NCBI GenBank assembly: GCA_030429365.1 | Contig: JAUIEW010000024.1 | Span: 1-32,839, forward strand | From: Phycisphaerae bacterium | Lineage (GTDB): Bacteria; Planctomycetota; Phycisphaerae; UBA1845 | Direction of reading: 5' to 3' | Length of the DNA: 32,839 bases | In this document: positions 8,972 to 28,450 of the stretch, piece by piece | How positions within the stretch are numbered: position 1 is the first letter of the stretch | Layout of the letters: each line of letters opens with the position of its first letter | Notes under the pieces: generated by a model | The model's database searches: none | What the model saw: only the letters and a program-made list of their open reading frames with translations | Told to the model about the DNA's origin: nothing | Program-made: the position numbers and the translations under genes

Positions 8972-11900
8972 CTACTGAACCTCCACCATTTCCAAAATCA
9001 ACGGTTCGCTTGATCTTGAGCGGTCGGCTGGCTGCGTCGACACCGGTTGCGTACGCGTTAGACGATGCGCGGGAACCGACTGATGAGCGACTGGAACCGG
9101 CGACATCGACTGCATCACCGGAGCCACGGGCTGAGTATCAGATACTCCGACGTAGCTCGCATTCTGACTCGAATCGACCGCCGTGACCGGCACATACGAA
9201 GCCTGCCGCGACCTCATCGAGGCCGTCATCCCGGGACGCGGTGGGCCATAAACACCCGCCGCCGTCTTCTGATTCATGCTCTTCGGTGGCGTGGGACGCT
9301 TCGGGCCGTAGGTATCGGGACGCGGCTGACTGATCGGCTGCGTTTGCGGCACGATCGGTTGCAACGCATCCGGCGACTCGATCTCGCGATACGGCGGGAC
9401 ATTCTGCAGCGCTTCGTCATCGGGCAGAATCCGCAGGCCCTGCATCAGCTTGTTGCGCTGGATGCGCTTGGGCATGAATCCACTTTGATCACGCAAACGC
9501 TTGGACTGCTCGAACGCTTCGACCTCGTTGCGAACCACGTTCACCGTCAGGAGGATCAGCAATTCCGTCCGACGTCGTGTGCTGCTGGTCGCCCGAAACA
9601 GGTTGCCGACACCGGGAAGATCGCCAAGCACGGGAACCTTCGTCTCGCGTTCGTCTTCCTGGGTCTGAATCAAACCACCGATCACGATGGTCTCACCGTC
9701 CTTGACCGTCACCGTCGTCTCAGCCGAGCGATTCGTAAACGTCGGCGCACTGACGCCCTCTGAAATCTGAACGTTGCTACCCGGATTCAACGATGAAATC
9801 TCCGGCTTGATCAGCATGTTGACGTAGCCGTCCGGGTTAATGTGCGGCGTCACGTCCACGATGATACCGACGTCCTCGTATTCAACCTGCGAACTGACCT
9901 GCCCGTTGTCGCTGACCTGCGAACCGCGGAGGAATGGCACGTTGTCGCCAATCGTGATGTTACCTTCCTGGTTGTTCGACACGACGATCGTCGGCGCACT
10001 GAGCACTTCCAAACTACCATCGGATTGCAGCGCCCGAAGCAGGAAGTTGAAGTCAGCTCCGGTAATCGCGAAGGTGAATCCGCCGAACGAGCCCGCCGAA
10101 CCAGCGGCTCCCACGTCCGTTCCACCGACGAAGTCAAAGTTCTTACCTTTCACGATCCCGTTCGCGCCGACCGTCGCATTCTTGCTGAACGAGAGGTCCT
10201 GAAGGGCGAATTCCATGCCGAATTCGAGCGAGTCGTCGAGCGCGACTTCCGCAATCAACACTTCGATGACCACCTGGGGAGGCGGCCTATCGACCGAATA
10301 CAACATCTCCATGGTCCGCTGATAGTAACGCGGGCTCACACCGAGCAGCACCGTGTTGCTGTCTTCATCCGCAACGACCGTCACATGACGCTCGGCCCGA
10401 CGCAGGACAGCCGTCTCATCATCGAGATCGCCGAGCAGTTCATTCTCCGCGTCGAAGTATTCCTTCAGAGCTGTGACAATGTCCGTCGCGGGCACGTACT
10501 TGGCTTCGTAGACGTGGCGAATACGCTCGTCGACATCCTGACCGTCCAACTGACGAATCAGGTCTTCGACCATATTCAAGTCGGCTTCCGCGCCAGCAGC
10601 GATGACCGAGTTGGTGCGACGGTTGGCTGTAAACTTCAGTCGCTGACCCGGCGCCCGCGCTTCACTTCCCGAAGTCGATGCGGTCGTCGCAGCCCCACCA
10701 ACCTCCAGGCGGGTCTCAGGACCTTCATTTGATGTGTCTTCTTCAAACAGAGTCGTCAGCACATCCACAACTTCCTCGGCGTCGGCGTTGGCCAGCGGGA
10801 ACATCCGGATTTCACTGAGAATCGGATCGATGCGATCGATCGACTGGATCATGCTTTCGAGCATGTCCATGCTGGCAGCCGGCGCGAGAACGAACAGCGA
10901 ATTCGTGCGCTCGTCTGGTTCAATCGTGATGTCCTGCCGCATCAGCGTGCGCAGTTTTTGCTGTCCATCGGGGAACGTCTCGATGAACTTCAGTATGACG
11001 GCTTTTTCATCATCGCCTCCGCCGCCTGACTGCTCGCCGCCGTAAATCGTGGTCGTTAACACCTCAGCCAACTCGGTTGCATAGGCCCGCTTGAGCGTGA
11101 TCACTCGCAGCATCATTTCCGGACCAGGAACCGACGTGTCCATCTTCTTGATGACGTCGGCGATATTCGACATTTCCGAACTCGACGCCCAGACAACCAG
11201 TGAATTCGTCCGCGTGTCCGGTTCGATCGCGATCACGTCGGCTCGGCCGTCCGTGTTCTCACCTTGCGATTCAAACAACGCTTCCAGCGACGTTGCCGTC
11301 GGTTCAGCTTTGGCCTGCTTGAGCGGGAAGACCTGCACCTGCCGGCTAATGGACGAACGAACGTCGAGCAACGAGAGCAGGTGCTCCACCGTGCTGTGAT
11401 CTTCGGGCGATGCACTGCACACAATGCTGTTGGTGGCTTCGTCGGCCATCACGAACACGGGCGTGCGTTCGCCATCGGAGCCTTCCTGGCGGCCTTCAAA
11501 GATGTTTTCAATCTTGCTGGTCAGTTTGACGGCTGACGCTTCGTTAAGCGGGTAAACCTTGATCGCCGACTTCGCCGACACGGGCACGTCAAGCGATTCG
11601 AGCATTTCGGTGGAGCGTTTGATCGCGTCGCGCGACCCGGTCATGATCAGCGTGTTGCTCATCGCGTCGGGGACGATCGTCGGGGCTTTGAAGTCGCCGT
11701 CGGAATTCGATTCCATGCCTTCAAAGAGCGTATCCATCATGCTGCCGACCTTGACGGGGTCGGCGTTCTTGAGCTTGAAGATGCGCGTGTCGGCATTGAC
11801 CAGCGGAGCCCGATCGGTGTCCATCTGCGTGATGAGTTTCTCAATGATGCTCAGGTTGGTCTTCGACGCACTGGCGATCACTGCGTTGGAACGCGAGTCG

Positions 11901-14167
11901 GCGACCAGCGACACCTTCTGACGCTGCTCGATGATGTCGTTTTCCGCACCAACCGCACCGAGGTACAAACCCTCTTCAAATAGCTCGTTGATCTTTTCCG
12001 ACACGTTTTCGGCTTGCGCGTTTTCGAGCGGGAACACGCGGATCACGCCTTCCGGATCGAGTTCGACGTCGAGCGCCTTAATCAGCCGCGCCATCTCATC
12101 GAAGTTATCCTTCGACGACGCTACCAAAATGGTGTTGGTCACCGGTTCCGTGACAATCGCCACGCGATCCGACGGGTTTTCATTTTGCCCCTCAGCCAAC
12201 CGCTGCTGCAGACGTTCTTCGAACAGTTCCTTCAGCATATCGCCGATTTGCGTCGCGTCGTTGTTGGCCAGCTCAATCGTGCGAATCTCGGCGATGGGTG
12301 CGAGCGGCTGAGCTTCCAACTGCTCAACCAATCGCTTGATTTCTTCGAAGTCATCCGGACCCGACGCGATCACGAGCGAGTTGCTGCGCTGATCGGCGAC
12401 GACCACCGGCGAATCCTGCGGGATATCAGCTTCTCCGCGAAGCTCGGCTTTTCGCTCCCAAAGCTCATCGACCTTGGATTTCAAATCACCCGCCGACGCA
12501 ACCGTGCAGTTGATGATGCGAATCTGATCGCTGAAGCGCTCCGGCGCGCCGTCCAGCGTTTCGACAATCTTCTTGATCTCCTCAAAATTCTCCGCGATCG
12601 CCGAAACAATCAGCGAGTTCGAGCGGATGTCGGTCGAAAGGAAAATCTTCTCCTTTGCCAGCGCGGCTTCGCCGAGTTCGAGTTTCTCCATGTTCTCGAT
12701 GCGCTTCTCCCACAGGTCTTCGACGATCTTGCCGATGCGGGTCGCGTCAGTGTTCGTCATCGTGATGAGGCGGATCGGGTACTTGATCTCCGACATGGGC
12801 ACGTCGAGCTTTTGAATCAAACCGTCGACAAGCACCAGTTGCTCCGTCCGGCCGGCAACCACCAGCGTGTTCGTGCGGGCGTCGGCTGAAATCGCGACGT
12901 TGTAAACCAGCGATCGGCCAATGGCATTCGTCGGAACGGCTTCGGTCGTCTCACTGCCCGGCGCCGGTTTGGGAAGGTCCTTACCCGCGTCAAACATTTC
13001 GTCGAGCAGTTCCTTTACTCCGGACGCATCGGCATGGGCGAGCGGATACACGCGGAGGTTCTGCTCTTCAGCCAATGGTACACTGTCGAGCAACTTGATG
13101 AGTTCGCCAAGCGGTTCGATGTTTTCCTCAGCCGTCGCGCAGATGATCGCCTGCGACTCTTCGTCGGCGATCAGTTTGATCTGGCGTTCGAGATTGAGCA
13201 CCGGCAGTTCGACCTGCTTGCCGTCGGGCGTGGCCTGAATCATTCGCAGACGACGAATCGTTTCCTGCACCGCGTCGGACGTGTCAGCCGTCTTGAGCAA
13301 ACTATCGAGCACATCGACCATGCCGGTGGCTTTGCTGTTGAGCAGTGGGAAGTGAACCAGCGTCAAATCGCCGAACCCCTTCATCGGTTCGACATCGAGG
13401 CGATTGATCAATTCGCGAATCTTCTCATGTTCGGTCAACGGCGCGATCACAAACAGCGAGTTGCTCGCATCCAATGGCGTGATCGTGATCTGGCTGGCCG
13501 GATCCTCGCCTTGCTTCTGACGCAGAGCATTGACCAGTTCCTCCAACTTCGGAGCGGCTTCGATCGCCTTGATATGCTTAAGTTCGTACGTCACCGAATC
13601 AAAATTGGGCAGCCCGGAATCCTGCTCATCGAGTTGCGCCACGATTCTCTCGACCCGATCCAGTTCGGCTTCCGGACCGGTCACGAGCAGGATATTGCTG
13701 GCAATGGTTTGAACGTTGATCTCTTCGTCGGGACGTTGCGATGGATTCAGTTTGGTCGCGGCTTGCTGCACAACGCTGGCGATGTTCTGTGCATTCTTGC
13801 TCTGCAACTTGATGACGCGATAACCCTGCGGCTGATATTCACCGTCGAGGCGATTCATCAACTCTTCGATGATATCGAGATCGCCTTCGACCGCGGTGAT
13901 GACCACGTTGTCGCCAACCACTTCGACCTTGACGTCCGCGCCACTGAGATTCAGATCGACAGGGTCTTTGGATGCGCGCTCGCTGCCCGCGTCGGCATTG
14001 TCTTCGTTGTCACGGGCGTCGTCGTCAGCTCTGGTGTCGCCGGCATTGCGTCGTCCAGCCGGTTGACGTCTGCCATCGGCATCGTCGTCTGCCCTTTGGG
14101 CGAACAACGGTTGCGGTAACAGCACCGCACCAGCCAGCACCCATCCCAATATCGATCGCTTCAACAT
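8972..14167 (-). CDS. gspD: Giant type II secretion secretin GspD with ~14 N1-type modules
   Basis: A 1731-residue outer-membrane channel protein, against roughly 650-750 for usual GspD. ATG 14167 has an AAGGG site eight bases upstream and a signal peptide ending LFAQ at residue 24. Residues 25-70 are an acidic disordered linker. Residues 76-108 are the second half of a Secretin_N-like module. Fourteen full modules follow (about 116-1293), each a 'RVYPL..A.A..V...L..LF' half, a variable loop and a 'TNSLVV.......I..LD' half. The secretin barrel is at about 1296-1546, with VVIEVLIAEV, SAPTIVVSNNQ, VEYEDVGIIVDVTP and the closing ETTVTVKDGETIVIGGLI and VPVLGDLPGVGNLFR. A Gln/Pro/Ser-rich tail ends the protein. 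The 169 bases to the giant gene upstream hold a six-base hairpin (14273-14289) without a T-run. Confidence 0.93.
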   Translation of the reverse strand: MLKRSILGWVLAGAVLLPQPLFAQRADDDADGRRQPAGRRNAGDTRADDDARDNEDNADAGSERASKDPVDLNLSGADVKVEVVGDNVVITAVEGDLDIIEELMNRLDGEYQPQGYRVIKLQSKNAQNIASVVQQAATKLNPSQRPDEEINVQTIASNILLVTGPEAELDRVERIVAQLDEQDSGLPNFDSVTYELKHIKAIEAAPKLEELVNALRQKQGEDPASQITITPLDASNSLFVIAPLTEHEKIRELINRLDVEPMKGFGDLTLVHFPLLNSKATGMVDVLDSLLKTADTSDAVQETIRRLRMIQATPDGKQVELPVLNLERQIKLIADEESQAIICATAEENIEPLGELIKLLDSVPLAEEQNLRVYPLAHADASGVKELLDEMFDAGKDLPKPAPGSETTEAVPTNAIGRSLVYNVAISADARTNTLVVAGRTEQLVLVDGLIQKLDVPMSEIKYPIRLITMTNTDATRIGKIVEDLWEKRIENMEKLELGEAALAKEKIFLSTDIRSNSLIVSAIAENFEEIKKIVETLDGAPERFSDQIRIINCTVASAGDLKSKVDELWERKAELRGEADIPQDSPVVVADQRSNSLVIASGPDDFEEIKRLVEQLEAQPLAPIAEIRTIELANNDATQIGDMLKELFEERLQQRLAEGQNENPSDRVAIVTEPVTNTILVASSKDNFDEMARLIKALDVELDPEGVIRVFPLENAQAENVSEKINELFEEGLYLGAVGAENDIIEQRQKVSLVADSRSNAVIASASKTNLSIIEKLITQMDTDRAPLVNADTRIFKLKNADPVKVGSMMDTLFEGMESNSDGDFKAPTIVPDAMSNTLIMTGSRDAIKRSTEMLESLDVPVSAKSAIKVYPLNEASAVKLTSKIENIFEGRQEGSDGERTPVFVMADEATNSIVCSASPEDHSTVEHLLSLLDVRSSISRQVQVFPLKQAKAEPTATSLEALFESQGENTDGRADVIAIEPDTRTNSLVVWASSSEMSNIADVIKKMDTSVPGPEMMLRVITLKRAYATELAEVLTTTIYGGEQSGGGGDDEKAVILKFIETFPDGQQKLRTLMRQDITIEPDERTNSLFVLAPAASMDMLESMIQSIDRIDPILSEIRMFPLANADAEEVVDVLTTLFEEDTSNEGPETRLEVGGAATTASTSGSEARAPGQRLKFTANRRTNSVIAAGAEADLNMVEDLIRQLDGQDVDERIRHVYEAKYVPATDIVTALKEYFDAENELLGDLDDETAVLRRAERHVTVVADEDSNTVLLGVSPRYYQRTMEMLYSVDRPPPQVVIEVLIAEVALDDSLEFGMEFALQDLSFSKNATVGANGIVKGKNFDFVGGTDVGAAGSAGSFGGFTFAITGADFNFLLRALQSDGSLEVLSAPTIVVSNNQEGNITIGDNVPFLRGSQVSDNGQVSSQVEYEDVGIIVDVTPHINPDGYVNMLIKPEISSLNPGSNVQISEGVSAPTFTNRSAETTVTVKDGETIVIGGLIQTQEDERETKVPVLGDLPGVGNLFRATSSTRRRTELLILLTVNVVRNEVEAFEQSKRLRDQSGFMPKRIQRNKLMQGLRILPDDEALQNVPPYREIESPDALQPIVPQTQPISQPRPDTYGPKRPTPPKSMNQKTAAGVYGPPRPGMTASMRSRQASYVPVTAVDSSQNASYVGVSDTQPVAPVMQSMSPVPVAHQSVPAHRLTRTQPVSTQPADRSRSSEPLILEMVEVQ
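10289..13822 (-). repeat. Array of 14 Secretin_N-like modules in GspD
   Basis: By residue: 116-180, 191-258, 267-361, 370-455, 463-539, 547-618, 626-700, 707-783, 793-860, 868-935, 943-1010, 1019-1111, 1118-1208 and 1215-1293. The modules are recognised by the recurring (T/S)N(S/T)(L/I)(V/I) strand and a helix ending in LD. They are diverged at DNA level, so this is an old expansion and not a recent tandem duplication. Confidence 0.8.
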
Positions 14168-14336
14168 CGTCTCAACCCTTTATGAATCCGCACCGCACGC
14201 GCTTCGGCAACCTCCATGTCGCCAAGTCACATCCGGTGTTGACTTGTGATTTCAAACCATCGTCGCAGACTCGGGTTGCATTACAACCCCAGCCCCTCGC
14301 GGGCGCACGACAGTTATCCGAATGTCTGACAGAAAC

Positions 14337-17300
14337 TTATCGCCGCCGCCCACGCCGCGACGAACGCCTTGAACCTTGTGAGTTATTCTGCTCGATCATG
14401 CCTTCAATGACACGCTTAAAATCTTCAGGATCCATTTTGTCCGGCGTCAAAATCAGCGTCTTTTTTCCGCCAGCCGGTCCTTGCTGCTGAATCTGAGCGA
14501 CGATCACCTCAGCCAACTCCAACTCCTTCGCATCACCTGCGATCAGCAGCGAGTTACTCGACGAGATCGGTTCGACCGACAAACTGCCGCTGTTGCGACC
14601 GCCTCGTCCGCCGCGCCGTCCGCCTCTGCCAGACTGACCACGCGGCTGCATCGCCGCTGCCAGTGTTGCCTCGAGGGTTGAAGCGATGTCATCCGCCCGA
14701 AACGCCGACGAAAGCTGAATCAACTTGACGCGTTCGCCCTCGGCTTCTTCCGAGTCCAGTTCGTGGGCGAGACGTTCAATCTGGGCAAAGTCGCCCGGGT
14801 TGGCCCGCACGATCAGCGAGTTGGTCACGTCGTTGGCGACGATCACCGGCGGCATGCTTGAACCACTGCTGCCACGACGATTGTTCCGCCCGCCGCGACT
14901 CGCATTTTCAACAAAAATCTGCGAAAGCGTCGGTTCGACTTCGCTCGCGATCGCCCGTTCAAGCTTGATGATCTGCGGACCCGACTCCGCATCGGTTTCG
15001 ACGTCGATCTTTGCGATCAGCGAAGCGACCCGTTCGAGTCCATCTTCATCACCGGTGACCACCAGCGAATTGTTGGAGTTCACAATGCTGACGCGAATGT
15101 TGCCAAGCAGTTCATCTCCACCGCGCCCGCGCCGCCCGCGATTGTTGCCTGGCTTGCGCAGGTAGTCTTCGATGATCGTCTGCATCTCGTCGGCATTGGT
15201 GTATTCGAGTTGGAACGTGCGCACCGAACGATCGGTGTCATCCGGCAACACATCAAGCTGATCGATGACCGCGCTGATCTCGGCAAACTCTTCCTCGCTG
15301 GCTTTGATGAGAATCGCATCCGAACCGGATGGCGCGGTGACGCTGATCGTTTCCTGACCACGAACGTTGCGACCGCGCCGGACAAAAATGTCCTGAAGCG
15401 CCCGAGCCACCTCGCCCGCATCGGCGTACTTGATCTGCACAACCTTGACGTCGCGGGTCCCCGTTCCCTTTTGATCGTAACCGGCAAGAAACTCACCGAT
15501 CTCCGCGAGACGCTCCGGCGAACCGGCGACAATCACCGAGTTGGAACCCCACGCGGGAACAACTTTGATCTGATCGCGGGGACTCGCCCGGCGATTTCGA
15601 CTCGCCTGCCCAAACAGCTGATTGAGCGCCTCAGCCGTCGACCACGCATCGGCGAATTCCAACTTGAACGACTTGACCTCGCGCTCGAATTTCTGCGGGA
15701 CGTCCAGCGTTTCCACGAGTTCCTGCACCGCAGCCAACTCCGAATCATTGGCAAACACCAAGAGCGAATTGGTCCCCGGATCGGGCACGATTGTCAGCCC
15801 TTGATCGTCACGACGACGGCGACGCGTCCGCTCCATAATCTGCGAAAGCTTGTCGGCCAACTCCTCGGCATTGGCTTCCTTCAAACCGATGACGTGCGTG
15901 GTGCGTTGAACGGTGGATTCGGTGTCCACCATTGTGATCATGTCCGAAACTTTGTCGTGATTCTCCGGTGTGGCGCTGACAACGAGACTGCTCGTCCCGG
16001 AGATGTAGTTCACCTTCACTTCGTCCTGCGGCTTTGCTCCACGCGGCGCCTTGAACGTATTCTGCACCGCCCGGACGGCCGAGTTCGGCTCGACAAACTT
16101 CAGCGGATACACGCGAACTTCGAGTCCCGTCTGCGTATCCGGCTCCTTGTCGAGCTCGGCGATCAGCGGAACCAATTCGTCGTAGTCCTTCTGCGTGGAC
16201 GAGATCAGCAACACGTTCTGCTCATCGTCGGCAACGACGCTGATGTTGTTGTTTGCCCCGCGCCGTCGCCCGCGAAGCGACTTGTTGATGATGTCGGCAA
16301 CGTTCGACGCGCGGGCTTCCTTGATCGCGTAGATCTTCTGCACCGGCGCGGAAGGCCCACCGGCAAACTCGTCGAGCTTCTTGATGACTTCCGCGTCGAT
16401 CTTGTCAAGCTGGCCGGCTGTCCCGCGAACGATCACCGTATTGGTCGAGACATTCGCCTCCGCTTTGGGCGGATCCAAACCGTCTGGCTGTTGACCGCCA
16501 TAAAGTCGATTGATCGTCGCTGCGATTTCGCGGGCATCCGAATCGTGAAGCGCGATGACCTTCGTCTGAATCTCCATCGGAGCAGCCGCTTCCACGTCAA
16601 TCTCCGCGAGCACGCGCGACACAAACGCAAACGTGATCGGTCCGCCCATGACCACCAGCGAATTGGAGCGCTGGTCGGCTTCGGCACTGAACGGATCGAG
16701 CTTCATCTTGGTGTTGGTGGCCCGCAATTGCTGCAACAGTTTGTTGACCATCTTGTTCATCTGGTCCAACACCTGCGGCGCTTTGGCGTACTTGAGTTTA
16801 AAGACCTTGATGTCCAAACCCGTCTGCGGCACGTCGATCTCAGCCACGCGCGTTTGAATCTCGGTGTGAAGGCTTTCGGGAGCACGAACGAAGATCTTTC
16901 CGCTGCTTGAGTCAGCCACGAACTCGATCTGGGCATTGGCGCTCTTCGACCGCCCCTTTCCCTTGCCGACGCCGTAGATCGCTTCGAGCGTCCCCGCGAT
17001 GGCTTCGGCGTCGCCGTTGATCACGTCGATCGTCAACAGATTGCCAATGTCCTGCTTGACGTCGAGCTTGGCGATCGCTTCGTCGATCTTTTCAAACGCA
17101 CTGACCTTGGCGCGAACGTACACGGTGTTGTTGGCCACGTCGGCTTTGAAGATCGCATCGATGTTGTCAGGATGATATTCGCTAAGGCTACCGCTGCCGG
17201 AGTCGAAAAGTTGATCAAGAAGCCCGACCACCGCTTCGGCGTCGGCGTGGGCCAATCGAAACTCCCGCGTCTCGATGGCCTCTGGTGCCTGCTCTTCGAT

Positions 17301-20300
17301 CTTCTGGATGATCTCCTCGGCCACCTCAAGAATGCGCTTGGGTGCGCGAACCATGATCGTGTTGGTCACGTCGTTGCTCGCGATGGTGATCGTCTCAGTC
17401 GAACTGATCATCCCGCCGTCCGCACCGACCAACGCTGAAAGGGCCATCGCTTCGCGCATTTGCTCAGCCGCCGCAGCGGCAGCGTTGTTGTTTTGATTGC
17501 GACCGCGTGTCTGCCGCGTGTTGGGCCGGCGCGACTGCTGTTGTTGATCCAGACCGAAAATCTGCTTGAGTTGCGTCTCCACATCCGACGCAAGTTGGTT
17601 GGTGATCTTAAAGAACTTGTAACCGCTGTCGGAATCACCCTTGCGATCGATCGTCGCGACCAATTCTTCGATGGCCGGATACAACTCGGTCGGGGCTTTG
17701 ATGATGATCGCATTCAGCGCGGGATACGGGAATACACTGATCCCGCCAGGGGTCGTCCCCTTTTCTTTCTCATCGTCGTCCTCGTCGTCCTCGCCGCGGC
17801 CACGACGACGGTCGTCTTTGCCGTCACTTTCTCCACCGCCTCCAGCCTCATTCGACTTCTGCATTTGCTGGAGTTGTTGTTGCATCTGCTTTTGCATTTG
17901 GGCTTGCATTTGTTGCATCTGGCGTTGCAAGTTGTTGTTGTTGCGACCCCTTGCGTTGGCACGTGCCTGCGCCTGAGCTTGCGAACGATTGCTCGCGTTA
18001 AACATCGACTCCAACACCTGCGCGGCAACATTCGGATCGACGTGCTGCAACTGCCACACACGAATATCAGGGAGCTGCGGAAGCTGATCCAACTCCTCCA
18101 TGATCTTCTTGATTTCATATTCAACGTCGCTGACCAACTTGGGCGGACCGCTGACGCGAATCGAATTGGTAATGGGATCGACATAGATGCGCACCTTCGA
18201 CGCCTCTTCGGTATTGGCATCGCCGTCTTTTGTGGCATTCGCCGACGTTGCATCTTTGTCGTCACCGGCTTGAGCCTCCAAACGCTCTTTCAGCATGCGG
18301 GCGATCGCATCGGCTTTGACGGTATCTTCGGATGCACCGTCGCTTGATGCACTATCGCTTTCTGAAGGGGCGGGTTCGTCATCGCCGCCCGCCTCATCGG
18401 GCGCGGTCTGACCGATGACTTCCATCTGCACCGCTTCAAGGGCGCGGAACATCGAGGATGGCACGACGCAAGGACTGGTTGAATCGTCCGCGGTCAAGCG
18501 CTTCAGGCGCGATCCGCCCTTTTGCGTCTCAAACCCTTCGATCTCGACATCGAGGTCGCCAAGACGCTCGAGCAGCATCGCCGCCACCAGATTCGCCGGC
18601 CTGTCCTTAACCGCTTTCACCGTCGTCTTGGACTCGCTGGCCTTGCCCGGGAGGTCCACGAAGTCAGTGAGCAACTTCTTCACGCGGGGCAGGTCCTCAT
18701 CCATGTTCCGACTCTTGATGACGAGCATCTGCGAGAACGGAATGTAATCCACCTTCGGGGCGTTCTTGCTCCAGAGGGCATCGATCAACTCTTCCAGCGT
18801 GTACATGGCGTCGAACGGATCGACGTGCTTGAGCTCGACCAACTCGCTGGGCATTTCCTCAACGACTTCGACCTCGCCCGACTCATACACGTCATAAAGC
18901 GCGTCAATCTTCGCCAGGTCCTGCGGTGACGCCCATACGATCATCTCGTTGGTGAAGTAGTTGGTCACCAGGCTGATGTTTCCACCGCGACGCGGGCCGC
19001 CAAAGCTGATGTCGCCCCACAAATCATCTTCGCTGGATTTCTTGGCTTTCGCAGCACCCGAATCGATCACCGTCATGATCTCATCCGCGAATTCCTCGAC
19101 ATCCTTGGTCGTCATCTTGTAGATCTTCATCTGAAGACCCATGCTTGCGTCAGTGTCGAGATCGCGAATCCACTTCTCGACCTTGTCGACTTCGTCACTG
19201 GGCCCTTTGACGACGAGGGCATCGCCACCAGGCGCCGCCACCACCGTCACCACACCCGTGGTCTTCAGCACCGTCGAATTATCCTTGCCCCCGCGCTTCG
19301 CGTTCTTGCCGCGTTTCTTCGGCGCCACCGCGCTGGGAGCCGGCGAACCGGTAATCATCGCGTTGATCGCCAACGCCATCTCGTCGGCTGGCGACTTGAT
19401 CAGCGGAACGCGGCGAACCACGTCGTCACTGCACTGGCCTTTCTGCACCTCGGTGATCAGCGTCTTGAGATCGTCGATCAACAAACGCGGGCCAGCGTAG
19501 ACAATCCGATTCGCACCCGGGTCAGCCGTCAGCGAAATATCCGCATCTTTCTCCGTCGATTCGGGCAGTTCACCGCTGAGGATGTACGATTTCTTGCGCA
19601 GTTCGATGATGGGGCCGACCACATCGACGATGACCTCCGGATCGCACTGATCGATCGGGATAAACTCGACCGCAAAGTTCGGACCTTCAACGTCGGGCCG
19701 CAACAAGTCAATCGCGTCTTCGATCTCGTCGAACATGTCCACCGGGGCGGAGATGAAAATTTTGCGCGTCGCCGCCTGCGGGACAAACATGATCTCAGCG
19801 TCGCCGCGCGAAGCCACCTTCGTCACCGGCTTGGTGCCGCGGCGCTTCTTGCCGGTCGGCTTGGCCGGATTCAACGAACTGACGATGCGACTGTTGTTCG
19901 GGAAAAACTGCGACAACGTCTGCGACAGCTCAACCACATTGGTGCCCGGCTCGAATTCGTACGAACGAATCGCAGTCTCATCTGCATTGCTGTCGAACTC
20001 GGTGATGAGCTGCTCGATCATCTCCATTTTTTGCGGCGGGGCTGTCACGTAAAGCCGATTACCGAAATCGACAAACTGAACCGACGACGTTGAAGTCGGT
20101 GTCTTGGTTCTTGCCTTTCGCTTTCCTTTCGTCGCAACCGGCGGCGCTGAAATACCACCCGTCTCCACCATCGCTTCCAGCATCGGAATGATTTCGTCGG
20201 CTGTCACGAACTCCAGCGTAAACGTCTTGCGTACCAACGCGCCGACCTTGATCGGATCGACATCGACAGCCGCCAGGATGTGCTTCATGATCGCCAACTG

Positions 20301-22751
20301 CGTGTCCGACGCGTCGAACACCATGATGCCTTGCGGCGATTCCAGAAACGACGGCGCTCCACCACCCTGCGTCCCATCAAACTTGGACTCCAGGATGTTG
20401 ATGGCGTTCGACGTTTCGAGGTAATTCAGCGAGATCACGTCGTACTCGGTTTGAACATTGAACTCGTTGTCGAGCTTGACGATCATGGGTCGATACTTCT
20501 CGTCCCAATCGGTCTGATTGCAAAAGACGAAGAGGGTGTTGGTGGTGTCGTCGGCTTGGAACCGATTGCTCTTCGTCGTGCTGCGACGGCGCGGACGCCT
20601 TTTGCTGGTTTTCGACTTGGCCGGCGTTGACGCTGGCGTTTCGCTGTCCCACTGCGTCAGGATCGCGATCAACGATGACGGCGTCGTGTTTTGCAGCTTG
20701 TAACTGAAGATGTCATCGGGCTCTTCGTCCGACTCGACATCCAGCTGGGCGATGAGGTCGCGGGCTTTCGCCACAGTTTCAGGTTTGCCGACCAGAACGA
20801 TCGACTCGCCTTCGTTGTCCACCGTGCAAGTCACGCCGTCTTCCTGCTGGGCGCTGAACAACTCGTTGATCAACGCCACCAACTCGACCGGGTCGCGCTG
20901 GTCGACTTCGACGAACTCCGTCACCGTGTCGTCGGGCACATCGAACCGCTCGACCAGGGCGCGGGCTTCCTCAATCCGCTCCTCGGTCCCCTTCATGATG
21001 ATGCTGTTCATCGCCGGCCAATCGATCATCGTCAACTCGTCGAGCGATGCCGTGTCACCGGTCGCGGATCGGCGGGGTGTGGCTTTGGTTTTGCGACCGC
21101 GTTTCGACTTTGTTGTTTTCTTGGGCTTGGGCGAGGTGCTGACATCGGTGGACAACATCGTCTGGACCATCGTCAAGACATCGGCAGACTTGGCGTGGTT
21201 CACTTCCACGATGACCGGCTCGAATTCAGGCTCCTCGGGATCGACATCGACAAAGACCAGGAACTTTCTGACCTCTTCGATCTTCTTGGGCATCGCATAG
21301 AGGAGCAGCGTCCCAAGATCATCGTTGGGAATCGCGATGATTCCTTCTGCCTCCGCTTCGGCGACGCTTGGTTGATTTCCCCGGCGCTTTCGCGCCGACG
21401 CCCCCTTGGGTGCGTCAAAACCATCCACGAGAAGCCTCAGCGACTCGAGCGCTTCCGAGGGCAATATGTGTTCAATCTCCAGAATGCGAACCTCGCGCGG
21501 ATCGGCTGGCTCACTGTTGAACTTGTCAATGAGTTCCAAGTACTTGTTGATGTCGCGCACCAGTCCGAACACATTCATCTGGTTCTTGTCTGGGACCTGC
21601 GCGATGCGCACATAGTCGGGCATGAAGTCACGAAGCGGTTCCAGGTCGGCCACCGAACCCGACTCGGGCGTGTAGACCAGCATCGCCATCTCGTTGTCTT
21701 CAAGACCACTTGCGCGATACTCTTCCACCGTCGGGAAGATGCGTTCGAGCGGAAGCGGCCGCACACCATCCTTAACCGAAATCAACTGCAACACCGGCGA
21801 CGTTCCAGACTCGTCTAGCCAGATCCAATACATGTCGTCCGGATGCCGAAACAGGAGCATGCCGATGCGTCCCATCGCCGATTTGAAGTCCATCTTCTCG
21901 GAACTGATGAACTTCACATCACCAGCCGGCGCCTGCCCCATGAGCGGCAACCCCGACATCCGCGAAAATGATTCCATCAAGTCCGCATAGGTGCCATCGA
22001 TGCTGAACTGATACGTCCGCTGGTCGTAAGGCTTCAAATAGTTTTCAGCGTCAACATTGATTTCCGGCCGCAGTTCAACACCGGTCTTCTTGGCTTCCTC
22101 TTTCTTGGCATTGCGACTGCGCGACGAACTTGGGCGCCGACCCCGACGACCCGAGGTCTTTGACGTGGTCTTGCTCTTGTCATCGTCGTCTTTTTTGTCG
22201 CGGCTGCTGGCGCGTCGGGATGTGGGTGATCGTCGCGTCGGCCGCTTGTTGCCAGTCGTGCGCGTCTTTTTCGGATCTTTGTCGTCGTCCTTGTTGGCTT
22301 CGGTTTTCGCGTTGTTGGGCTTGGTCTGGACTCGGCGGGCTCGTGTCTTCGTGTCGTTGGTCTTCGGAGCCTTTGCTTTTGAATCTTTGGTCTGCTCTTT
22401 GCCACCACGAAGCGCTTCACTGACCTTGGCAGCCTTCTGGTCCTCGCGACCTTCGCGCTCCATCGCTTTTTCCCACTTGACCCAAAGCGCATCGAGTTCT
22501 CGGATCTGTGCTTCGGTCACTTCCTGGTCGGCGAGCTTTTGAATCTTGGCCAGGATTTCGTCCGACGTTTCTTCGCCGTTCGCCTTGGTGCCACTTGGTG
22601 ACACTGCGAGCGCAGCGAAGGCCACCAGAGCGCAACACAGGTTGCGAAGTACATGGCTCGTGCCAAATGCGGACAGGCGACCTGGCCGGTTGGAACTGAC
22701 CAACGGCGCATCGGGTGAAACCTGATTTGATCGATTAATCTGAATTAGCAT
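14337..22751 (-). CDS. Giant 2804-residue Secretin_N-module protein without a barrel
   Basis: ATG 22751 has a GGGA site eight bases upstream and lies 18 bases after the gspM-like stop. A hydrophobic segment at 36-50 is probably a signal peptide with a long n-region. Residues 60-240 are charged and disordered, very rich in K, R, S and T. Residues 246-326 look like an N0/STN domain. From 354 to 2756 there are about 27 modules of the type found in secretin N1-N3 domains (for example TNSLIVRA and SNSVIVAG strands). The protein ends with the first half of a 28th module (2763-2790) and a basic SRRSSRRGRRR tail. No secretin barrel is present. Many modules carry K/R/G-rich loops between their halves, and module 14 carries a Gln/Met-rich insert. 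The probable role is a periplasmic extension of the secretion channel. I know no characterised homologue. Confidence 0.85.
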   Translation of the reverse strand: MLIQINRSNQVSPDAPLVSSNRPGRLSAFGTSHVLRNLCCALVAFAALAVSPSGTKANGEETSDEILAKIQKLADQEVTEAQIRELDALWVKWEKAMEREGREDQKAAKVSEALRGGKEQTKDSKAKAPKTNDTKTRARRVQTKPNNAKTEANKDDDKDPKKTRTTGNKRPTRRSPTSRRASSRDKKDDDDKSKTTSKTSGRRGRRPSSSRSRNAKKEEAKKTGVELRPEINVDAENYLKPYDQRTYQFSIDGTYADLMESFSRMSGLPLMGQAPAGDVKFISSEKMDFKSAMGRIGMLLFRHPDDMYWIWLDESGTSPVLQLISVKDGVRPLPLERIFPTVEEYRASGLEDNEMAMLVYTPESGSVADLEPLRDFMPDYVRIAQVPDKNQMNVFGLVRDINKYLELIDKFNSEPADPREVRILEIEHILPSEALESLRLLVDGFDAPKGASARKRRGNQPSVAEAEAEGIIAIPNDDLGTLLLYAMPKKIEEVRKFLVFVDVDPEEPEFEPVIVEVNHAKSADVLTMVQTMLSTDVSTSPKPKKTTKSKRGRKTKATPRRSATGDTASLDELTMIDWPAMNSIIMKGTEERIEEARALVERFDVPDDTVTEFVEVDQRDPVELVALINELFSAQQEDGVTCTVDNEGESIVLVGKPETVAKARDLIAQLDVESDEEPDDIFSYKLQNTTPSSLIAILTQWDSETPASTPAKSKTSKRRPRRRSTTKSNRFQADDTTNTLFVFCNQTDWDEKYRPMIVKLDNEFNVQTEYDVISLNYLETSNAINILESKFDGTQGGGAPSFLESPQGIMVFDASDTQLAIMKHILAAVDVDPIKVGALVRKTFTLEFVTADEIIPMLEAMVETGGISAPPVATKGKRKARTKTPTSTSSVQFVDFGNRLYVTAPPQKMEMIEQLITEFDSNADETAIRSYEFEPGTNVVELSQTLSQFFPNNSRIVSSLNPAKPTGKKRRGTKPVTKVASRGDAEIMFVPQAATRKIFISAPVDMFDEIEDAIDLLRPDVEGPNFAVEFIPIDQCDPEVIVDVVGPIIELRKKSYILSGELPESTEKDADISLTADPGANRIVYAGPRLLIDDLKTLITEVQKGQCSDDVVRRVPLIKSPADEMALAINAMITGSPAPSAVAPKKRGKNAKRGGKDNSTVLKTTGVVTVVAAPGGDALVVKGPSDEVDKVEKWIRDLDTDASMGLQMKIYKMTTKDVEEFADEIMTVIDSGAAKAKKSSEDDLWGDISFGGPRRGGNISLVTNYFTNEMIVWASPQDLAKIDALYDVYESGEVEVVEEMPSELVELKHVDPFDAMYTLEELIDALWSKNAPKVDYIPFSQMLVIKSRNMDEDLPRVKKLLTDFVDLPGKASESKTTVKAVKDRPANLVAAMLLERLGDLDVEIEGFETQKGGSRLKRLTADDSTSPCVVPSSMFRALEAVQMEVIGQTAPDEAGGDDEPAPSESDSASSDGASEDTVKADAIARMLKERLEAQAGDDKDATSANATKDGDANTEEASKVRIYVDPITNSIRVSGPPKLVSDVEYEIKKIMEELDQLPQLPDIRVWQLQHVDPNVAAQVLESMFNASNRSQAQAQARANARGRNNNNLQRQMQQMQAQMQKQMQQQLQQMQKSNEAGGGGESDGKDDRRRGRGEDDEDDDEKEKGTTPGGISVFPYPALNAIIIKAPTELYPAIEELVATIDRKGDSDSGYKFFKITNQLASDVETQLKQIFGLDQQQQSRRPNTRQTRGRNQNNNAAAAAAEQMREAMALSALVGADGGMISSTETITIASNDVTNTIMVRAPKRILEVAEEIIQKIEEQAPEAIETREFRLAHADAEAVVGLLDQLFDSGSGSLSEYHPDNIDAIFKADVANNTVYVRAKVSAFEKIDEAIAKLDVKQDIGNLLTIDVINGDAEAIAGTLEAIYGVGKGKGRSKSANAQIEFVADSSSGKIFVRAPESLHTEIQTRVAEIDVPQTGLDIKVFKLKYAKAPQVLDQMNKMVNKLLQQLRATNTKMKLDPFSAEADQRSNSLVVMGGPITFAFVSRVLAEIDVEAAAPMEIQTKVIALHDSDAREIAATINRLYGGQQPDGLDPPKAEANVSTNTVIVRGTAGQLDKIDAEVIKKLDEFAGGPSAPVQKIYAIKEARASNVADIINKSLRGRRRGANNNISVVADDEQNVLLISSTQKDYDELVPLIAELDKEPDTQTGLEVRVYPLKFVEPNSAVRAVQNTFKAPRGAKPQDEVKVNYISGTSSLVVSATPENHDKVSDMITMVDTESTVQRTTHVIGLKEANAEELADKLSQIMERTRRRRRDDQGLTIVPDPGTNSLLVFANDSELAAVQELVETLDVPQKFEREVKSFKLEFADAWSTAEALNQLFGQASRNRRASPRDQIKVVPAWGSNSVIVAGSPERLAEIGEFLAGYDQKGTGTRDVKVVQIKYADAGEVARALQDIFVRRGRNVRGQETISVTAPSGSDAILIKASEEEFAEISAVIDQLDVLPDDTDRSVRTFQLEYTNADEMQTIIEDYLRKPGNNRGRRGRGGDELLGNIRVSIVNSNNSLVVTGDEDGLERVASLIAKIDVETDAESGPQIIKLERAIASEVEPTLSQIFVENASRGGRNNRRGSSGSSMPPVIVANDVTNSLIVRANPGDFAQIERLAHELDSEEAEGERVKLIQLSSAFRADDIASTLEATLAAAMQPRGQSGRGGRRGGRGGRNSGSLSVEPISSSNSLLIAGDAKELELAEVIVAQIQQQGPAGGKKTLILTPDKMDPEDFKRVIEGMIEQNNSQGSRRSSRRGRRR
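14484..21692 (-). repeat. Array of ~27 Secretin_N-like modules in the giant protein
   Basis: Approximate residues: 354-412, 420-504, 511-605, 611-672, 681-761, 767-831, 840-920, 926-1017, 1025-1103, 1110-1199, 1206-1290, 1301-1367, 1373-1555, 1562-1702, 1711-1819, 1827-1898, 1903-1974, 1980-2053, 2061-2127, 2136-2201, 2210-2276, 2283-2351, 2357-2426, 2433-2501, 2509-2583, 2591-2666 and 2672-2756. Modules 1, 12 and 13 are the most degenerate. From module 16 on the spacing is regular at about 70-80 residues. Confidence 0.75.
17856..17984 (-). repeat. Gln/Met-rich insert in module 14
   Basis: Encodes residues 1590-1632 of the giant protein: alternating QA, then a run dominated by Q and M that should form a helix or coiled coil. 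It is followed by a Gly/Asp/Arg-rich acidic and basic stretch to about 1668. The insert sits between the two halves of one module, where shorter loops sit in the others. Confidence 0.8.
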
Positions 22752-22769: not shown

Positions 22770-24368
22770 TTACTGCGGGTCAGTTTGTTTCGGTTTTGCT
22801 TTCCCAGCACCAGATGCGCCCCGGGCATTCGAATTCGATCTGGGTCGAACCGGTGTATCCTCGTCCGAATTGCCAATCGATTTATCCGGAGTCGCAGGCC
22901 TGTTGTCCGATGCCTTGGGCTTAGGACCTGGGGTACTTCTTGATCGAAATGATCGCGGCGTTCGACGACGCCCTTTGATGTCATTCGATCCATTGCTGCC
23001 GGCTTTTGTTTTTACACCGCCAGGCGATGGCGGCTGCACATCGGCCTCGGATTCTTCCGCCAAACCCGTCGACGTCGTGTCCTGATCGACAACGTCAGGC
23101 GAATCCTCATCAGATTCCACGCCGTTACTTCCACCATCCGGCGCTTCAATATCAAGTCCCATTTGCGCCAAAACGTCCTCGACGCTCATGCCATTGGATG
23201 TCGCCTCATCGGCATCGTCGTCAGCCTCTTCATCCGGCGGACCGACGAACTCATCTTCGGCATCGTCATCTACGATGCCCATCGCGCGGCGTTTGGCCGC
23301 CTGGGCATCACGTTCCGCTTCCTCGATGGCGATGCGTCGATCCTCTTCATCGAAGTACTGCAGCATCGCCACCTGGATTTCCGGCCAATCGTCGGCATCA
23401 CCCAGCGGAATCGCATCTGAAACATACTGCCCCAACGGATAAACGTAATACCCGTAGTCCTCTTTCAGATTCACGACGCCCAGCGCCGTCACCAGCACCA
23501 GCGTACCGCCGTCGAATTCCTCGCCAACCGCGACATGCATCGTGGAGTCGTCGGCAATGTTCGCGAGTCGCACTTCGTCCACGCCATAGCGCAACACCAT
23601 CTTGAGCATCCACTCAGACGCATCGGGCCATTCGGGCGGCCCTGGGGGTTTAGGAGGAGGCGGTGGGGGAGTCGGTGTACTCTTCTTTATTTTGTCTTTA
23701 GGAGAAGGCGGCGTCGGTTTCTGGTACGGCGTAAACGGCTTCCAATTCTTCAACTGCGTCAACTGTTTGATCGAGAACTTCTTGATGAAGTCGGGCTGCT
23801 TGCCAATCTTGAGATCGAGTGACTTTTCGTCCGGCAGGACAAGCACTTCAATCTCTCCCGTCAACTTCACCTCATCATGCCCCCGTCGCTGCCGGGCCGA
23901 CGTCGGTTCCAACTTCAACGAGTTAAACCGAGCGATGTACGGGATGCGATAAAACATCCGGACGAAGTCGATGCTCTGTCGAAACGATCCAATCGCCGAC
24001 ATCGAAATCTGAATCGTGTATACGTTGGAACGTTTCTCGATGGGCCGGGGATCCTTCGGCGTGATCACCGGCTGGCGCAGCTTGGCGTCACGCACCAGAC
24101 CGCTGATGCAATCGTAGAGATCGTCACGTGCATCGTCGGGGTTGGTGGTCTTGGTCCGCTCAACATAGCTGATGTATTTGTCGCGCAGCTTCGCTTCCAA
24201 TTCGTCATGTTCTTCAGCCACATCATCCAACTGACGCTGGGCAATGCGAACCTGTTGCGGCGAATTGAGCAACGGATCGATCAAGACCGGTTTGGCATAT
24301 TTCGCAGCCAAGCCAATCACAGCCACCGACATGAAGGCGATCAGCAATCGTTTTTCGCGCTGGTTCAT
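22770..24368 (-). CDS. gspM: GspM/PilO-like protein with a PilP/GspC-like second domain
   Basis: A 532-residue bitopic inner-membrane protein. ATG 24368 has a GAGGA site. A helix at about 8-24 is followed by a coiled coil (35-70) and a PilO/GspM-like periplasmic ferredoxin-type domain (85-180, with VYTIQISMSAIGSFRQSIDF). A proline-rich linker (216-248) leads to a second compact domain at 252-340 whose VRLANIADDSTMHVAVGEEF and VLVTALGVVNL...YYVYPLG pattern recalls the HR domain of GspC/PilP. The remaining ~190 residues are disordered, first acidic, then basic. PilO partners PilN (here the gspL product) and links the ATPase platform to the channel. No separate gspC is seen, so this protein may provide its function. 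The second-domain call is by eye only. Confidence 0.65.
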   Translation of the reverse strand: MNQREKRLLIAFMSVAVIGLAAKYAKPVLIDPLLNSPQQVRIAQRQLDDVAEEHDELEAKLRDKYISYVERTKTTNPDDARDDLYDCISGLVRDAKLRQPVITPKDPRPIEKRSNVYTIQISMSAIGSFRQSIDFVRMFYRIPYIARFNSLKLEPTSARQRRGHDEVKLTGEIEVLVLPDEKSLDLKIGKQPDFIKKFSIKQLTQLKNWKPFTPYQKPTPPSPKDKIKKSTPTPPPPPPKPPGPPEWPDASEWMLKMVLRYGVDEVRLANIADDSTMHVAVGEEFDGGTLVLVTALGVVNLKEDYGYYVYPLGQYVSDAIPLGDADDWPEIQVAMLQYFDEEDRRIAIEEAERDAQAAKRRAMGIVDDDAEDEFVGPPDEEADDDADEATSNGMSVEDVLAQMGLDIEAPDGGSNGVESDEDSPDVVDQDTTSTGLAEESEADVQPPSPGGVKTKAGSNGSNDIKGRRRTPRSFRSRSTPGPKPKASDNRPATPDKSIGNSDEDTPVRPRSNSNARGASGAGKAKPKQTDPQ

Positions 24369-24430: not shown

Positions 24431-26026
24431 TCACTTCTCTTTGACCTTGCCTTCAATCACAACATTGATCGATCCCGACGTCGGATACTGTTCCTTGGAT
24501 CCCGATTCGGTCATGCGGCCGGCGACGGCATTGAAGTACACGCTATCCTCACCTCGAATTCTAAATGCGTCGATTCGCTCAACGGTGTCCAACACGGTCT
24601 GACGGTTGCTCGCCTCCAACTTCAAGGTGATCTCCGTGTTCTTGGCGTCCATGTCAATCAACTTCAACAGCATTTGCTGGCTCGAAGGCAGCAGGTCCGA
24701 CATGCGGTTGAGTTCGTCAAGCCAGATCACCTGGTCCTTGTCAAACGCGTCCGCAATCGCAATGCGCTTTTCCTGAATCTTTTCCAAATCGCTGATGCGG
24801 TCTTCGTATTCATCGATCTGCGCATGAAGATCACTCAGCGCCTGCCGCTTGGGCATGATCACCTTCCAGTACAATCCCCCGAGCAGCGACACCACAACCA
24901 ACGCCGCAACCGCAAACACCGGTGCCTTCTTCAACCGGCGCTCCGTCGCCGTCACCGTCCGCTTCGGATGCAGAAAATCAAAATCAAACTGCGCATCGCC
25001 CGCGTGGGCAGTGACCAAACCAAGGGCGGCTGAGAACGCCCGCGCCTCCGCGCCTTTCTCTTCCGGCCAATTGAATTGGGCGGCTGGGTTGTAGATTTCT
25101 ACGGTCGCCGGATAACGTTCACCGAGCGCCCGGGCCACCTGCTCTTCCATGCCCACGCTGCCACCGACGACAATCATGTCCACGTTGACACCGGGCGTCG
25201 ACGATCGAAACGCTTCAATCGTACGCGTCACTTCCACGACGAGTGCGCCAACCACCCGATCAACGTCGGACGTTCCAGTCGATGTCCCCGAGTTTGGGAA
25301 CTGAATGATGGCCGAATCCGCGGAGTCGTCCGTCGACATGATCGCCGAGTCGGCTTGCAACTGGTCGCTACCGGGCGCAACGGGTTTGGGGATCGACACC
25401 GAGCCAGCCCGCGAGAACGAAAGCTTCCCATTCATCACGACGTCGATTTCGGTGAGGCGCGGTCCGACATCAACCATCACCACACACTCGAAACGACCGG
25501 CTCCGAACAACCCGTGAATCGCTTCCTTGTTCGCGTAAGGTCGCAGTCCCAATCGAGCCAACTTCAACCCGGCATGCTCACAGGTCTTTTGGTAGTACTC
25601 GACCACTTCGCGCCGAACGGTCCCCACCAACACGTCAGCCGGACCGCCCGACGACGATTCGGGCATCGCAAAGTCAACCACCGCCTGGCTGAGCGGGAAC
25701 GGAATCTCCTTGCCGATCTGAAACTCCACCATCGCAGGCAGTTCGTTCGGATCGGACAGCGGAAGCTTCAACGTCGTCAGCAGGGCTTTGTCGCGGGGCA
25801 CGTCGAGGATCACGCGATCGGTGCGGATCTTCTGCTGCTTGAGGACATCACGAATCATCCCGCCAAGCTGTTCGGCATTGGACACGTCGAACTCGTCGGG
25901 CACATCCACACTGAACAAACGGTCGATGCGCACCTTACCCTTGCGCACTTTGGCGTGCACGAAACGGATGTAGCGCGCATCCCAATCGACGGCCAATATG
26001 GCTCGATCATTCTTCCGAAATGACAA
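24431..26026 (-). CDS. gspL: GspL-type platform protein (PilM-PilN-like)
   Basis: About 531 residues. A TTG at 26026 was chosen because a GGAG site lies nine bases upstream. The frame is open to 26173, but a longer start would run deep into gspK; a GTG at 26044 is a second option. Residues 8-340 form an actin-like PilM/GspL cytoplasmic domain (AILAVDWDARYIRFVHA, VILDVPRD, CVVMVDVGPRLTEIDVV, VDMIVVGGSVGMEEQ). A transmembrane helix is at about 368-390. A coiled coil and a ferredoxin-like PilN domain follow (LLPSSQQMLLKLIDMD, TEITLKLEASN). GspL anchors the GspE ATPase to the inner-membrane platform. The gene overlaps the 3' end of gspK by 20 bases, suggesting translational coupling. Confidence 0.88.
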   Translation of the reverse strand: MSFRKNDRAILAVDWDARYIRFVHAKVRKGKVRIDRLFSVDVPDEFDVSNAEQLGGMIRDVLKQQKIRTDRVILDVPRDKALLTTLKLPLSDPNELPAMVEFQIGKEIPFPLSQAVVDFAMPESSSGGPADVLVGTVRREVVEYYQKTCEHAGLKLARLGLRPYANKEAIHGLFGAGRFECVVMVDVGPRLTEIDVVMNGKLSFSRAGSVSIPKPVAPGSDQLQADSAIMSTDDSADSAIIQFPNSGTSTGTSDVDRVVGALVVEVTRTIEAFRSSTPGVNVDMIVVGGSVGMEEQVARALGERYPATVEIYNPAAQFNWPEEKGAEARAFSAALGLVTAHAGDAQFDFDFLHPKRTVTATERRLKKAPVFAVAALVVVSLLGGLYWKVIMPKRQALSDLHAQIDEYEDRISDLEKIQEKRIAIADAFDKDQVIWLDELNRMSDLLPSSQQMLLKLIDMDAKNTEITLKLEASNRQTVLDTVERIDAFRIRGEDSVYFNAVAGRMTESGSKEQYPTSGSINVVIEGKVKEK

Positions 26027-27578
26027 GGCGTCGCTCTCCTTCACGACCACGAACCGGATATGCCAGTCCCAATCGCGTGAGGTCTCGGTGATAAACGACT
26101 TGAGCCAAAGGCCCCCGCATGTCGACGATTTCCTGCAAGCGCGAGAAAACACCCACGTGATCGGCGAACCCAATGGACTCGATCGAAAACTGCCGCCCCC
26201 TGGCGGTGATCTGATTTTCTACCTTTGAAAACGTATGCGTATCGAGAATCTGTTCCGTTAAAAGCCAGCCGATCGTGGACTTGATCGGACCGGTCAGCGT
26301 CGCCCGCTTCTGAATAATCAGCGGAATGGCCTCGGGCGGAAGATCCTTGATGCAACCCAAGACCCGCGCGGGGGCGGTGTTGATATTGATCAAACCGTAC
26401 TGCTCGGGCGCTTGGTTGAGCGTGCAATAGTCAAAAAGTTTTGCGATCGCCGGACCGCGCAAGGGCGACGACTGCAGGATGTTGTCGATCGTTCGGTCTT
26501 CCAGATAAAGCGCCAAGGTATACGTCTTCGATGTCCCGCGCTCCCGCGTCGCCCCCAGCAGAAAATCCACGATCTTCTGATCGCCGAATACTTCCTCCAA
26601 CCGCGGGCGAATCTTCGCCGCTTCGGTGAACATGTAGATACGCGGCTTGTTGTCGTTGCTGACGTTGAAATCGTGGGTGTACACGGTGATGTATGGCAGC
26701 AGACCGCGTTCGAGGAAACCGTCGGCATTGTCCATCGGAAACGATGTCTCGCCGTCGTCTTCGTTGGGCGTGAGCAAACCATTGCGATCGTAGTCTTCAC
26801 CGTAAAGCAACTGACCGGTCATCCCCTTGACCATCAGCAATTCTTCAACCGTCTCAAACGGCGCGTTCTTGGCACGGTGCGGTGTGGGAAGCGATCCGTA
26901 ATACAGACTCTCCGCGCCAAACTCTCGCGCCTCATCATCGGGATCGCGCCAGTCCAGAATCGCGTGCACCAGTTCCAAAGGCTCCCTGCCGTCGGTGATC
27001 AACGGCGCAATCAACTTCAACAGTTGTTCTTCGGTCGCGAAATTGATGTTGAGTTTTGCCGATTCATCGGTAACGCCGTACCGCACCAGCTCTTCATCGT
27101 CGAGCGGGTTGTCGGCGACAATGCTGAATCGATAGGCGATGCGATCGTTCGTCTCTTCCGTCAGTTCGCCTTTGCCAATTGTTTCTTCCGTGGCTTTCGG
27201 GCTCCACACGAGCGCCTGATCGAACCGCGCCGGGTTGCTGTACCAAGCCTGCGGGTTGTCGCGCTCCGTCCGCAACAGGTGCTTCACCGCCTGCACGCCC
27301 GCTTCAGCCGCCAGCCGACACTGCAACCGCTGCGACATCGCCATGCCAGCCGAATGGTCGGCTTGCACGTGAAACGCATAACTTGCAGACAGAAGCGCCA
27401 GCAAGAGCAACACCACCAGCACCACCGGCAACACCAACCCGCGCGAACGATAACGCGCGCCAACGCGGCGACGACAGACTTCTGTCATCGACTCGCGTGG
27501 CCGGGTTCGCCGAGTTGCCTGGGCCAGTGCATTCGCTGTCTGGGCCTGTGCACTCATTGTGTGGGCCTGCGCGGTCAT
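26007..27578 (-). CDS. gspK: Minor pseudopilin GspK
   Basis: A 523-residue protein from ATG 27578, nine bases after the gspJ stop. GspK caps the tip of the pseudopilus. The prepilin site is RSRG|LVLPV with cleavage after Gly47 and a hydrophobic helix after it. Position +5 lacks the Glu of other pseudopilins, as is normal for GspK. Family blocks are clear: KLNINFATEEQLLKLI, ILDWRDPDDEAREFGAESLYY, NAPFETVEELLMVKGM and GLININTAPARVLGCI. The leader before the cleavage site is unusually long, and its first 21 residues come from three 21-bp DNA repeats. The ATG encoding MTEVCRRR (residue 31) would give a more usual leader. At over 500 residues it is longer than typical GspK (about 320). Confidence 0.93.
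   Translation of the reverse strand: MTAQAHTMSAQAQTANALAQATRRTRPRESMTEVCRRRVGARYRSRGLVLPVVLVVLLLLALLSASYAFHVQADHSAGMAMSQRLQCRLAAEAGVQAVKHLLRTERDNPQAWYSNPARFDQALVWSPKATEETIGKGELTEETNDRIAYRFSIVADNPLDDEELVRYGVTDESAKLNINFATEEQLLKLIAPLITDGREPLELVHAILDWRDPDDEAREFGAESLYYGSLPTPHRAKNAPFETVEELLMVKGMTGQLLYGEDYDRNGLLTPNEDDGETSFPMDNADGFLERGLLPYITVYTHDFNVSNDNKPRIYMFTEAAKIRPRLEEVFGDQKIVDFLLGATRERGTSKTYTLALYLEDRTIDNILQSSPLRGPAIAKLFDYCTLNQAPEQYGLININTAPARVLGCIKDLPPEAIPLIIQKRATLTGPIKSTIGWLLTEQILDTHTFSKVENQITARGRQFSIESIGFADHVGVFSRLQEIVDMRGPLAQVVYHRDLTRLGLAYPVRGREGERRLVISEE
27516..27578 (-). repeat. Three 21-bp tandem repeats at the gspK 5' end
   Basis: Encodes MTAQAHT, MSAQAQT and ANALAQA. Units 1 and 2 share 17 of 21 bases. 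This may be a slippage-made extension of the leader peptide and could vary in copy number. Confidence 0.6.
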
Positions 27579-28421: not shown

Positions 28422-28450
28422 CAAATCAAAACCGTCGTCGTCCGACGCCC

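Follow-up and report, generated by a model that had tools for sequence, protein, structure and literature searches.

The DNA analysed here (the window) is a contig of 32,839 nucleotides from a Phycisphaerae bacterium, and it carries a type II secretion system (T2SS) cluster on its minus strand. Components E (partial), F, G, H-, I- and J-like, K, L and M-like could be recognized (Table 1). The original prediction concerned a 2804-residue reading frame said to lie between gspM and gspD, and both the frame and its position hold: it is present on the minus strand, flanked by a GspM-like gene and by GspD. Its product is called chain 1 below, and the product of the adjoining gspD chain 2.

Table 1. 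Coordinates of the genes and features discussed in the text.
Feature	Position	Strand	Basis
C-terminal chain (chain 2), GspD-type secretin, 1731 aa: half-module, 14 modules, barrel	8972..14167	-	Pfam, profile
Secretin barrel region of chain 2	9488..10276	-	PF00263 at aa 1379-1546, E 1.1e-50
14 further Secretin_N modules of chain 2	10277..13837	-	Pfam, profile
Complementary half-module of chain 2 (beta2-beta3-alpha2, VKVEVVGDNVVITAVEGDLDIIEELMNRLD)	13838..13957	-	profile positions 39-76
Signal peptide of chain 2 (MLKRSILGWVLAGAVLLPQPLFAQ)	14096..14167	-	sequence
Gap between chain 1 and chain 2 genes, 169 bp	14168..14336	-	sequence scan
N-terminal chain (chain 1) of the putative split giant secretin, 2804 aa	14337..22751	-	ORF, Pfam, module profile, same gene in relatives
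C-terminal half-module of chain 1 (beta1-alpha1, GKKTLILTPDKMDPEDFKRVIEGMIEQ) and basic tail SRRSSRRGRRR	14340..14468	-	sequence, profile
About 27 Secretin_N modules of chain 1 (KH-like, beta-alpha-beta-beta-alpha), aa 333-2761	14469..21755	-	Pfam, profile, AlphaFold
N0/STN-like domain of chain 1, aa ~225-333	21753..22079	-	hhalign, AlphaFold and PDB match
Signal-peptide-like N terminus of chain 1, hydrophobic NLCCALVAFAALAVS	22578..22751	-	sequence and hydrophobicity; cleavage site not predicted
GspM/PilO-like inner-membrane protein, Pro-rich linker, C-terminal GspC HR-like region	22770..24368	-	profile matches
GspL/PilM-like protein	24431..26173	-	profile match
GspK minor pseudopilin	26007..27578	-	profile match
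GspJ-, XpsI- and GspH-like minor pseudopilins	27588..30210	-	profile match
GspG major pseudopilin	30329..30868	-	profile match
GspF	30858..32063	-	profile match
GspE ATPase, C-terminal end, runs off the window	32510..32839	-	profile match

Chain 1 consists of a signal peptide, a charged low-complexity stretch, an N0 domain, some 27 modules, a half-module and an Arg-rich tail. The predicted array of about 27 Secretin_N-like units is borne out: PF03958 matches with E 4.2e-172 in 19 significant stretches, an iterated module profile finds 24 modules at i-E < 0.01 as well as weak ones (200 shuffles of the chain 1 sequence gave one match in total), and inspection by eye gives 27 and a terminal half-module; overall the chain has 25 to 27. 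AlphaFold models an N-terminal module that the profile overlooks, with the order beta-alpha-beta-beta-alpha, and the modelled modules match the solved N domains of GspD, the fold that had been anticipated. The module at about aa 1371-1557 holds an insertion of some 120 residues, close to the position at which three-gene relatives are split. Inside this insertion, at aa ~1420 (about 18420-18500), lies a conserved motif, CV[LV]P[AS]S, which also occurs in the homologous insertions of loci L043, L048, L136 and L161-L164 and is repeated next to CPICHQSPC in several genomes. A reading of the motif as an eroded signal peptide was withdrawn, as it is doubled beside this CxxCH-type motif in some genomes.

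The domain ahead of the array had been described as STN-like, a label that survives as a fold and not as a family match. Pfam STN finds nothing in the N-terminal domain of chain 1, but hhalign matches it to the N0 domain of ordinary GspD (probability 75, E 2.6e-5). In the AlphaFold model of the N-terminal region (mean pLDDT 73), residues 28-117 superpose on DotD (Z 8.6, 2.6 A over 80 residues), and matches to GspD N0-N1 (3ezj, 3oss) and to the N0 of XcpQ were also obtained; the model thus supports an N0 fold for the first domain. As predicted, there is no outer-membrane barrel: Pfam gives no PF00263 match in chain 1, so that the 2804-residue protein on its own lacks the barrel of a complete secretin. 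NCBIfam TIGR02517 nevertheless passes its cut-off on this chain (485 against 351 bits), and model-based naming would therefore give GspD to a barrel-less half, a warning for annotation.

Two features absent from the original prediction change how this protein is read: the half-module at the C terminus of chain 1, and a gspD that itself carries about 14.5 modules and the barrel. Secretin_N matches chain 2 with E 3.1e-136, an N0 domain was looked for in this chain and not found, and its barrel end is 95% identical to that of the nearest named relative, Phycisphaerales bacterium UBA1845. Further downstream on the same strand, positions 5862-7124 encode a protein of 420 residues that has a Gly-rich stretch and matches STN weakly (E 0.023); it may be a further secretin-like protein without a barrel.

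The two genes meet inside a module. The last 40 or so residues of chain 1 form beta1-alpha1 of another module followed by a basic tail, and chain 2, once past the signal peptide, starts with the elements that complete this module, beta2-beta3-alpha2. Against the module profile, the tail half covers positions 7-38 and the head half 39-76; they score 11.7 and 14.1 bits separately and 22.7 bits joined. The same arrangement is found in 26 of 27 adjacent gene pairs, the upstream tail covering about 3-40 and the downstream head about 39-78, with the joined module clear of chance. Taken singly the halves are short and score weakly; joining them usually increases the score, with little or no gain at L038, L047 and L051. 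Right behind the half-module, most upstream genes carry an Arg/Ser/Gly-rich basic tail (14340-14385 in the window; also L040, L046, L051 and L136-L139), which may act as a signal for docking of the partner chain. The gap between the window's genes contains no terminator-like site that we could find, and its single weak promoter-like match overlaps the start of the chain 2 gene.

Relatives in which the same protein is a single chain show what lies at this junction. In same-order relatives with a single gene, the module matching the split one has an insertion of about 100-340 residues between alpha1 and beta2. AlphaFold modelling of one such natural junction (L028) places beta 84-90 and alpha 96-109 before a disordered stretch at 110-278, and beta 279-293 and alpha 294-310 behind it; mean pLDDT is 69 including the insertion, which is mostly disordered, while the strands and helices on either side are modelled with confidence. 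Residues 83-465 of this model align with N1-N3 of solved GspD/EpsD. Pairing of the two halves into one module is thus predicted from a one-gene relative. In seven one-gene giants of one family (L031, at aa 2610-2842 of the giant frame, L032, L039 and L161-L164), the split-site insertion holds a signal-peptide-like hydrophobic segment ending AxA-Q or AxG-Q, for example RRSSIVAGTVQGMLLNLSVATAMGQ. These segments resemble the true signal peptides that head the separate genes, and may be relicts of fusion or sites that are still processed.

Total length is conserved whether the protein is encoded by one gene, two or three. Same-order relatives from other families run from the N-terminal modules to the barrel in one frame of 4144-4890 residues (4144, 4391, 4484, 4598, 4719 and 4890 among others) with 35-42 profile-detected modules; 16 complete two-gene sets add up to 4143-4994 residues with 34-43 such modules, and the window's two chains to 4535. 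A clean three-gene set (L053) totals 4149 residues, and one-gene forms have a second long insertion at the three-gene cut position. L053 and L034 were counted as true three-gene cases; L044 (in-frame stop) and L026 (break in a masked stretch) were not, and L022 and L054, the latter with a masked stretch, were excluded because assembly problems seemed likely. At L044:10246 the stop interrupts a module encoded by the first gene and the frame resumes directly after it; this stop could be a mutation, a sequencing error or a readthrough site. The frame at L022:12775-18478 starts like RpoB (RNA polymerase beta subunit) and ends as a three-module secretin with barrel, and is probably an assembly chimera.

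Could the window simply hold one secretin gene interrupted by mutation or assembly error? One-gene relatives do exist, and the L044 stop and the L026 break in masked sequence would fit such a reading. However, the two genes of the window lie 169 bp apart, the gene for chain 2 has a separate start and encodes its own signal peptide, and the two-gene layout recurs in other genomes of the window's genus and in many genera, with only three changes of state on the tree. With the layout conserved across genera, this explanation was rejected and has next to no chance of being right.

The second alternative takes chain 1 out of the secretin altogether, as a monomer that acts in the periplasm as tether or ruler between the two membranes, a possibility that the original prediction had raised alongside a ring-forming tube. 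The missing barrel, the separate signal peptide and the beads-on-a-string repeats would all suit such a protein. Against it stand the halves of a module that complement each other across the gene boundary in 26 of the 27 pairs, the conservation of both adjacency and total length, and the one-gene relatives, in which the same domains sit in the secretin chain itself. Once the one-gene relatives and the half-modules had come to light a stand-alone tether was set aside, and we consider it very improbable. From the complementary half-modules and the one-gene homologues it follows instead that chain 1 is the N-terminal part and chain 2 the C-terminal third of one giant secretin, which makes a tether less likely and brings the number of proposed rings to about 43 instead of about 27. 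What had been presented as a free-standing protein without a characterised counterpart would thus be two-thirds of a giant secretin, the N-terminal part, with the next gene encoding the third that holds the barrel.

The spread of module numbers places this secretin within a ladder. Modules beside homologous barrels number mostly two or three in the named genomes scanned from Proteobacteria, Nitrospirae and similar groups, 5-7 in Pirellulales, 8-10 in Gemmatales, including the cultured Limnoglobus roseus, and 21-61 in a survey of 150 Phycisphaerae genomes, with about 69 in one case. One-gene giants of Phycisphaerae range from 2475 to 6169 residues, the longest (L151) having 61 modules. The largest set is the two-gene set of G028, with roughly 69 modules in about 5020 and 1800 residues, or about 6800 by arithmetic on the coordinates (first gene L147:14069-16601, in frame into L024:2-12632; second gene 12979-18379). 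The giant secretins form a single clade (SH-aLRT 100) whose sister group in the tree is the secretins of Pirellulales and Gemmatales. The split is confined to the window's order and requires at least three changes of state; fission and re-fusion look alike in the tree because the base of this order is poorly resolved.

The neighbouring genes suggest where the N-terminal end of the tube would sit. Across the class, whether the secretin is one gene or split, GspM-like homologues are encoded directly upstream of its N-terminal end, and the chain 1 gene recurs in relatives beside this homologue and gspD. The GspM-like assignment is weak but repeated (PilO E 3.3e-4; T2SSM in 6 of 16 members), and the match of its C-terminal region to the GspC HR domain (7oio) is weak (E 0.086). 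Throughout the class the GspM-like protein has this arrangement, an apparent fusion in which a Pro-rich linker leads to a GspC-HR-like domain. In T2SS the HR domain of GspC binds N0 (compare 3oss, a solved GspC-GspD complex), and the arrangement of neighbours therefore fits docking of N0 on the inner-membrane platform.

At the level of sequence, the modules, the complementary halves, the one-gene relatives of equal total length and the operon describe a two-gene product with N0, about 42 N modules and a barrel, some ten times the ring-forming modules of ordinary secretion channels. Very probably the 2804-residue protein is the chain nearest the inner membrane, the N-terminal one, in a giant type II secretin encoded in two adjacent genes cut inside one module, whose two chains, we infer, assemble together into one tube of stacked rings. 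Chain 1 would supply N0 and about 27 N1-type modules, and chain 2 about 14 more and the outer-membrane barrel. Each chain would be exported separately and meet its partner in the periplasm, where the halves would reconstitute a single KH-like module at a 1:1 ratio. Known secretins assemble from 12-19 copies, and the same number here would build one stack of about 43 rings, extrapolating from stacks of six. At 2.5-4.5 nm per ring, an approximate height taken from general knowledge and the dimensions of Thermus PilQ, the tube would measure about 110-190 nm. With N0 docked on the HR-like domain of the neighbouring gene's GspM-like product, the channel would reach the inner membrane across the periplasm. 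A long tube, as originally proposed, is plausible by analogy, with about 43 rings rather than about 27.

A single complex need not mean a closed tube. Most modules might form no closed rings and make up a flexible, beaded or helical brush or sheath on a short pore, an arrangement to which the long low-complexity loops within and between modules in much of chain 1, disordered in AlphaFold, would lend themselves. Yet the modules match ring-forming N domains of GspD, their number is held to a narrow range within the order, and Thermus PilQ stacks all six of its own. A brush or sheath is therefore unlikely, though less so than a tether.

Planctomycete periplasms can be very wide, and a very long secretin would, by analogy, suit an envelope of the Planctopirus type. 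Tomography of Planctopirus shows an inner membrane that has withdrawn far from the outer one, save where crateriform complexes seem to hold it in place (PMC5394234). It is conceivable, and we offer it tentatively, that the two-chain secretin with its split N domain is a tube of about 43 rings and more than 100 nm that acts as a spacer to the retreated inner membrane; such a tube could be the core of membrane-pinning structures, and some one-gene relatives may be cut at AxA-Q/AxG-Q, making a polyprotein secretin. In the open-licence literature searched, covering giant or split secretins, planctomycete GspD, and crateriform structures together with type II secretion, no secretin of this design was described, and the main text of Boedeker 2017 does not mention secretins. 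Starting from a design with a handful of N rings, the tube would take secretins to about 40-70, and it would indicate that division within a folded module is compatible with a secretin being retained. It is a candidate for how planctomycetes operate envelope-spanning machines across a wide, variable periplasm, and for what joins the two membranes at their contact sites.

Secretins themselves are already known; the proposed novelty lies in the giant size of this type II secretin and in its division, within one module, into two chains. Among the closest known systems, GspD/PulD/EpsD/XcpQ (N0-N3, TIGR02517, PF00263) have the order N0, N1-type modules, barrel and the T2SS neighbours in common with the window, whose modules match their solved N1-N3 domains; an ordinary GspD, in contrast, has three such modules in about 650 residues, against some 42 in 4535 residues and two chains. 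Three or four N domains, which the original prediction gave for known secretins, are not the upper limit: Thermus thermophilus PilQ (N0-N5) has six rings, unusually many, in a channel of about 35 x 15 nm that spans most of a periplasm of about 70 nm, its extra N rings being tied to that very wide periplasm (PMC5745081, PMC4463427). PilQ is a single 757-residue chain that serves a type IV pilus, whereas the window has about 43 proposed rings, two chains and a T2SS. Secretins of Pirellulales and Gemmatales share the homologous barrel and the extra modules, but are single genes of 1080-2270 residues in which no split was seen. The one-gene giants of Phycisphaerae are direct homologues with many modules and a barrel in one unsplit chain, and those of the window's order carry a long insertion in the split-site module where the window has its gene boundary.
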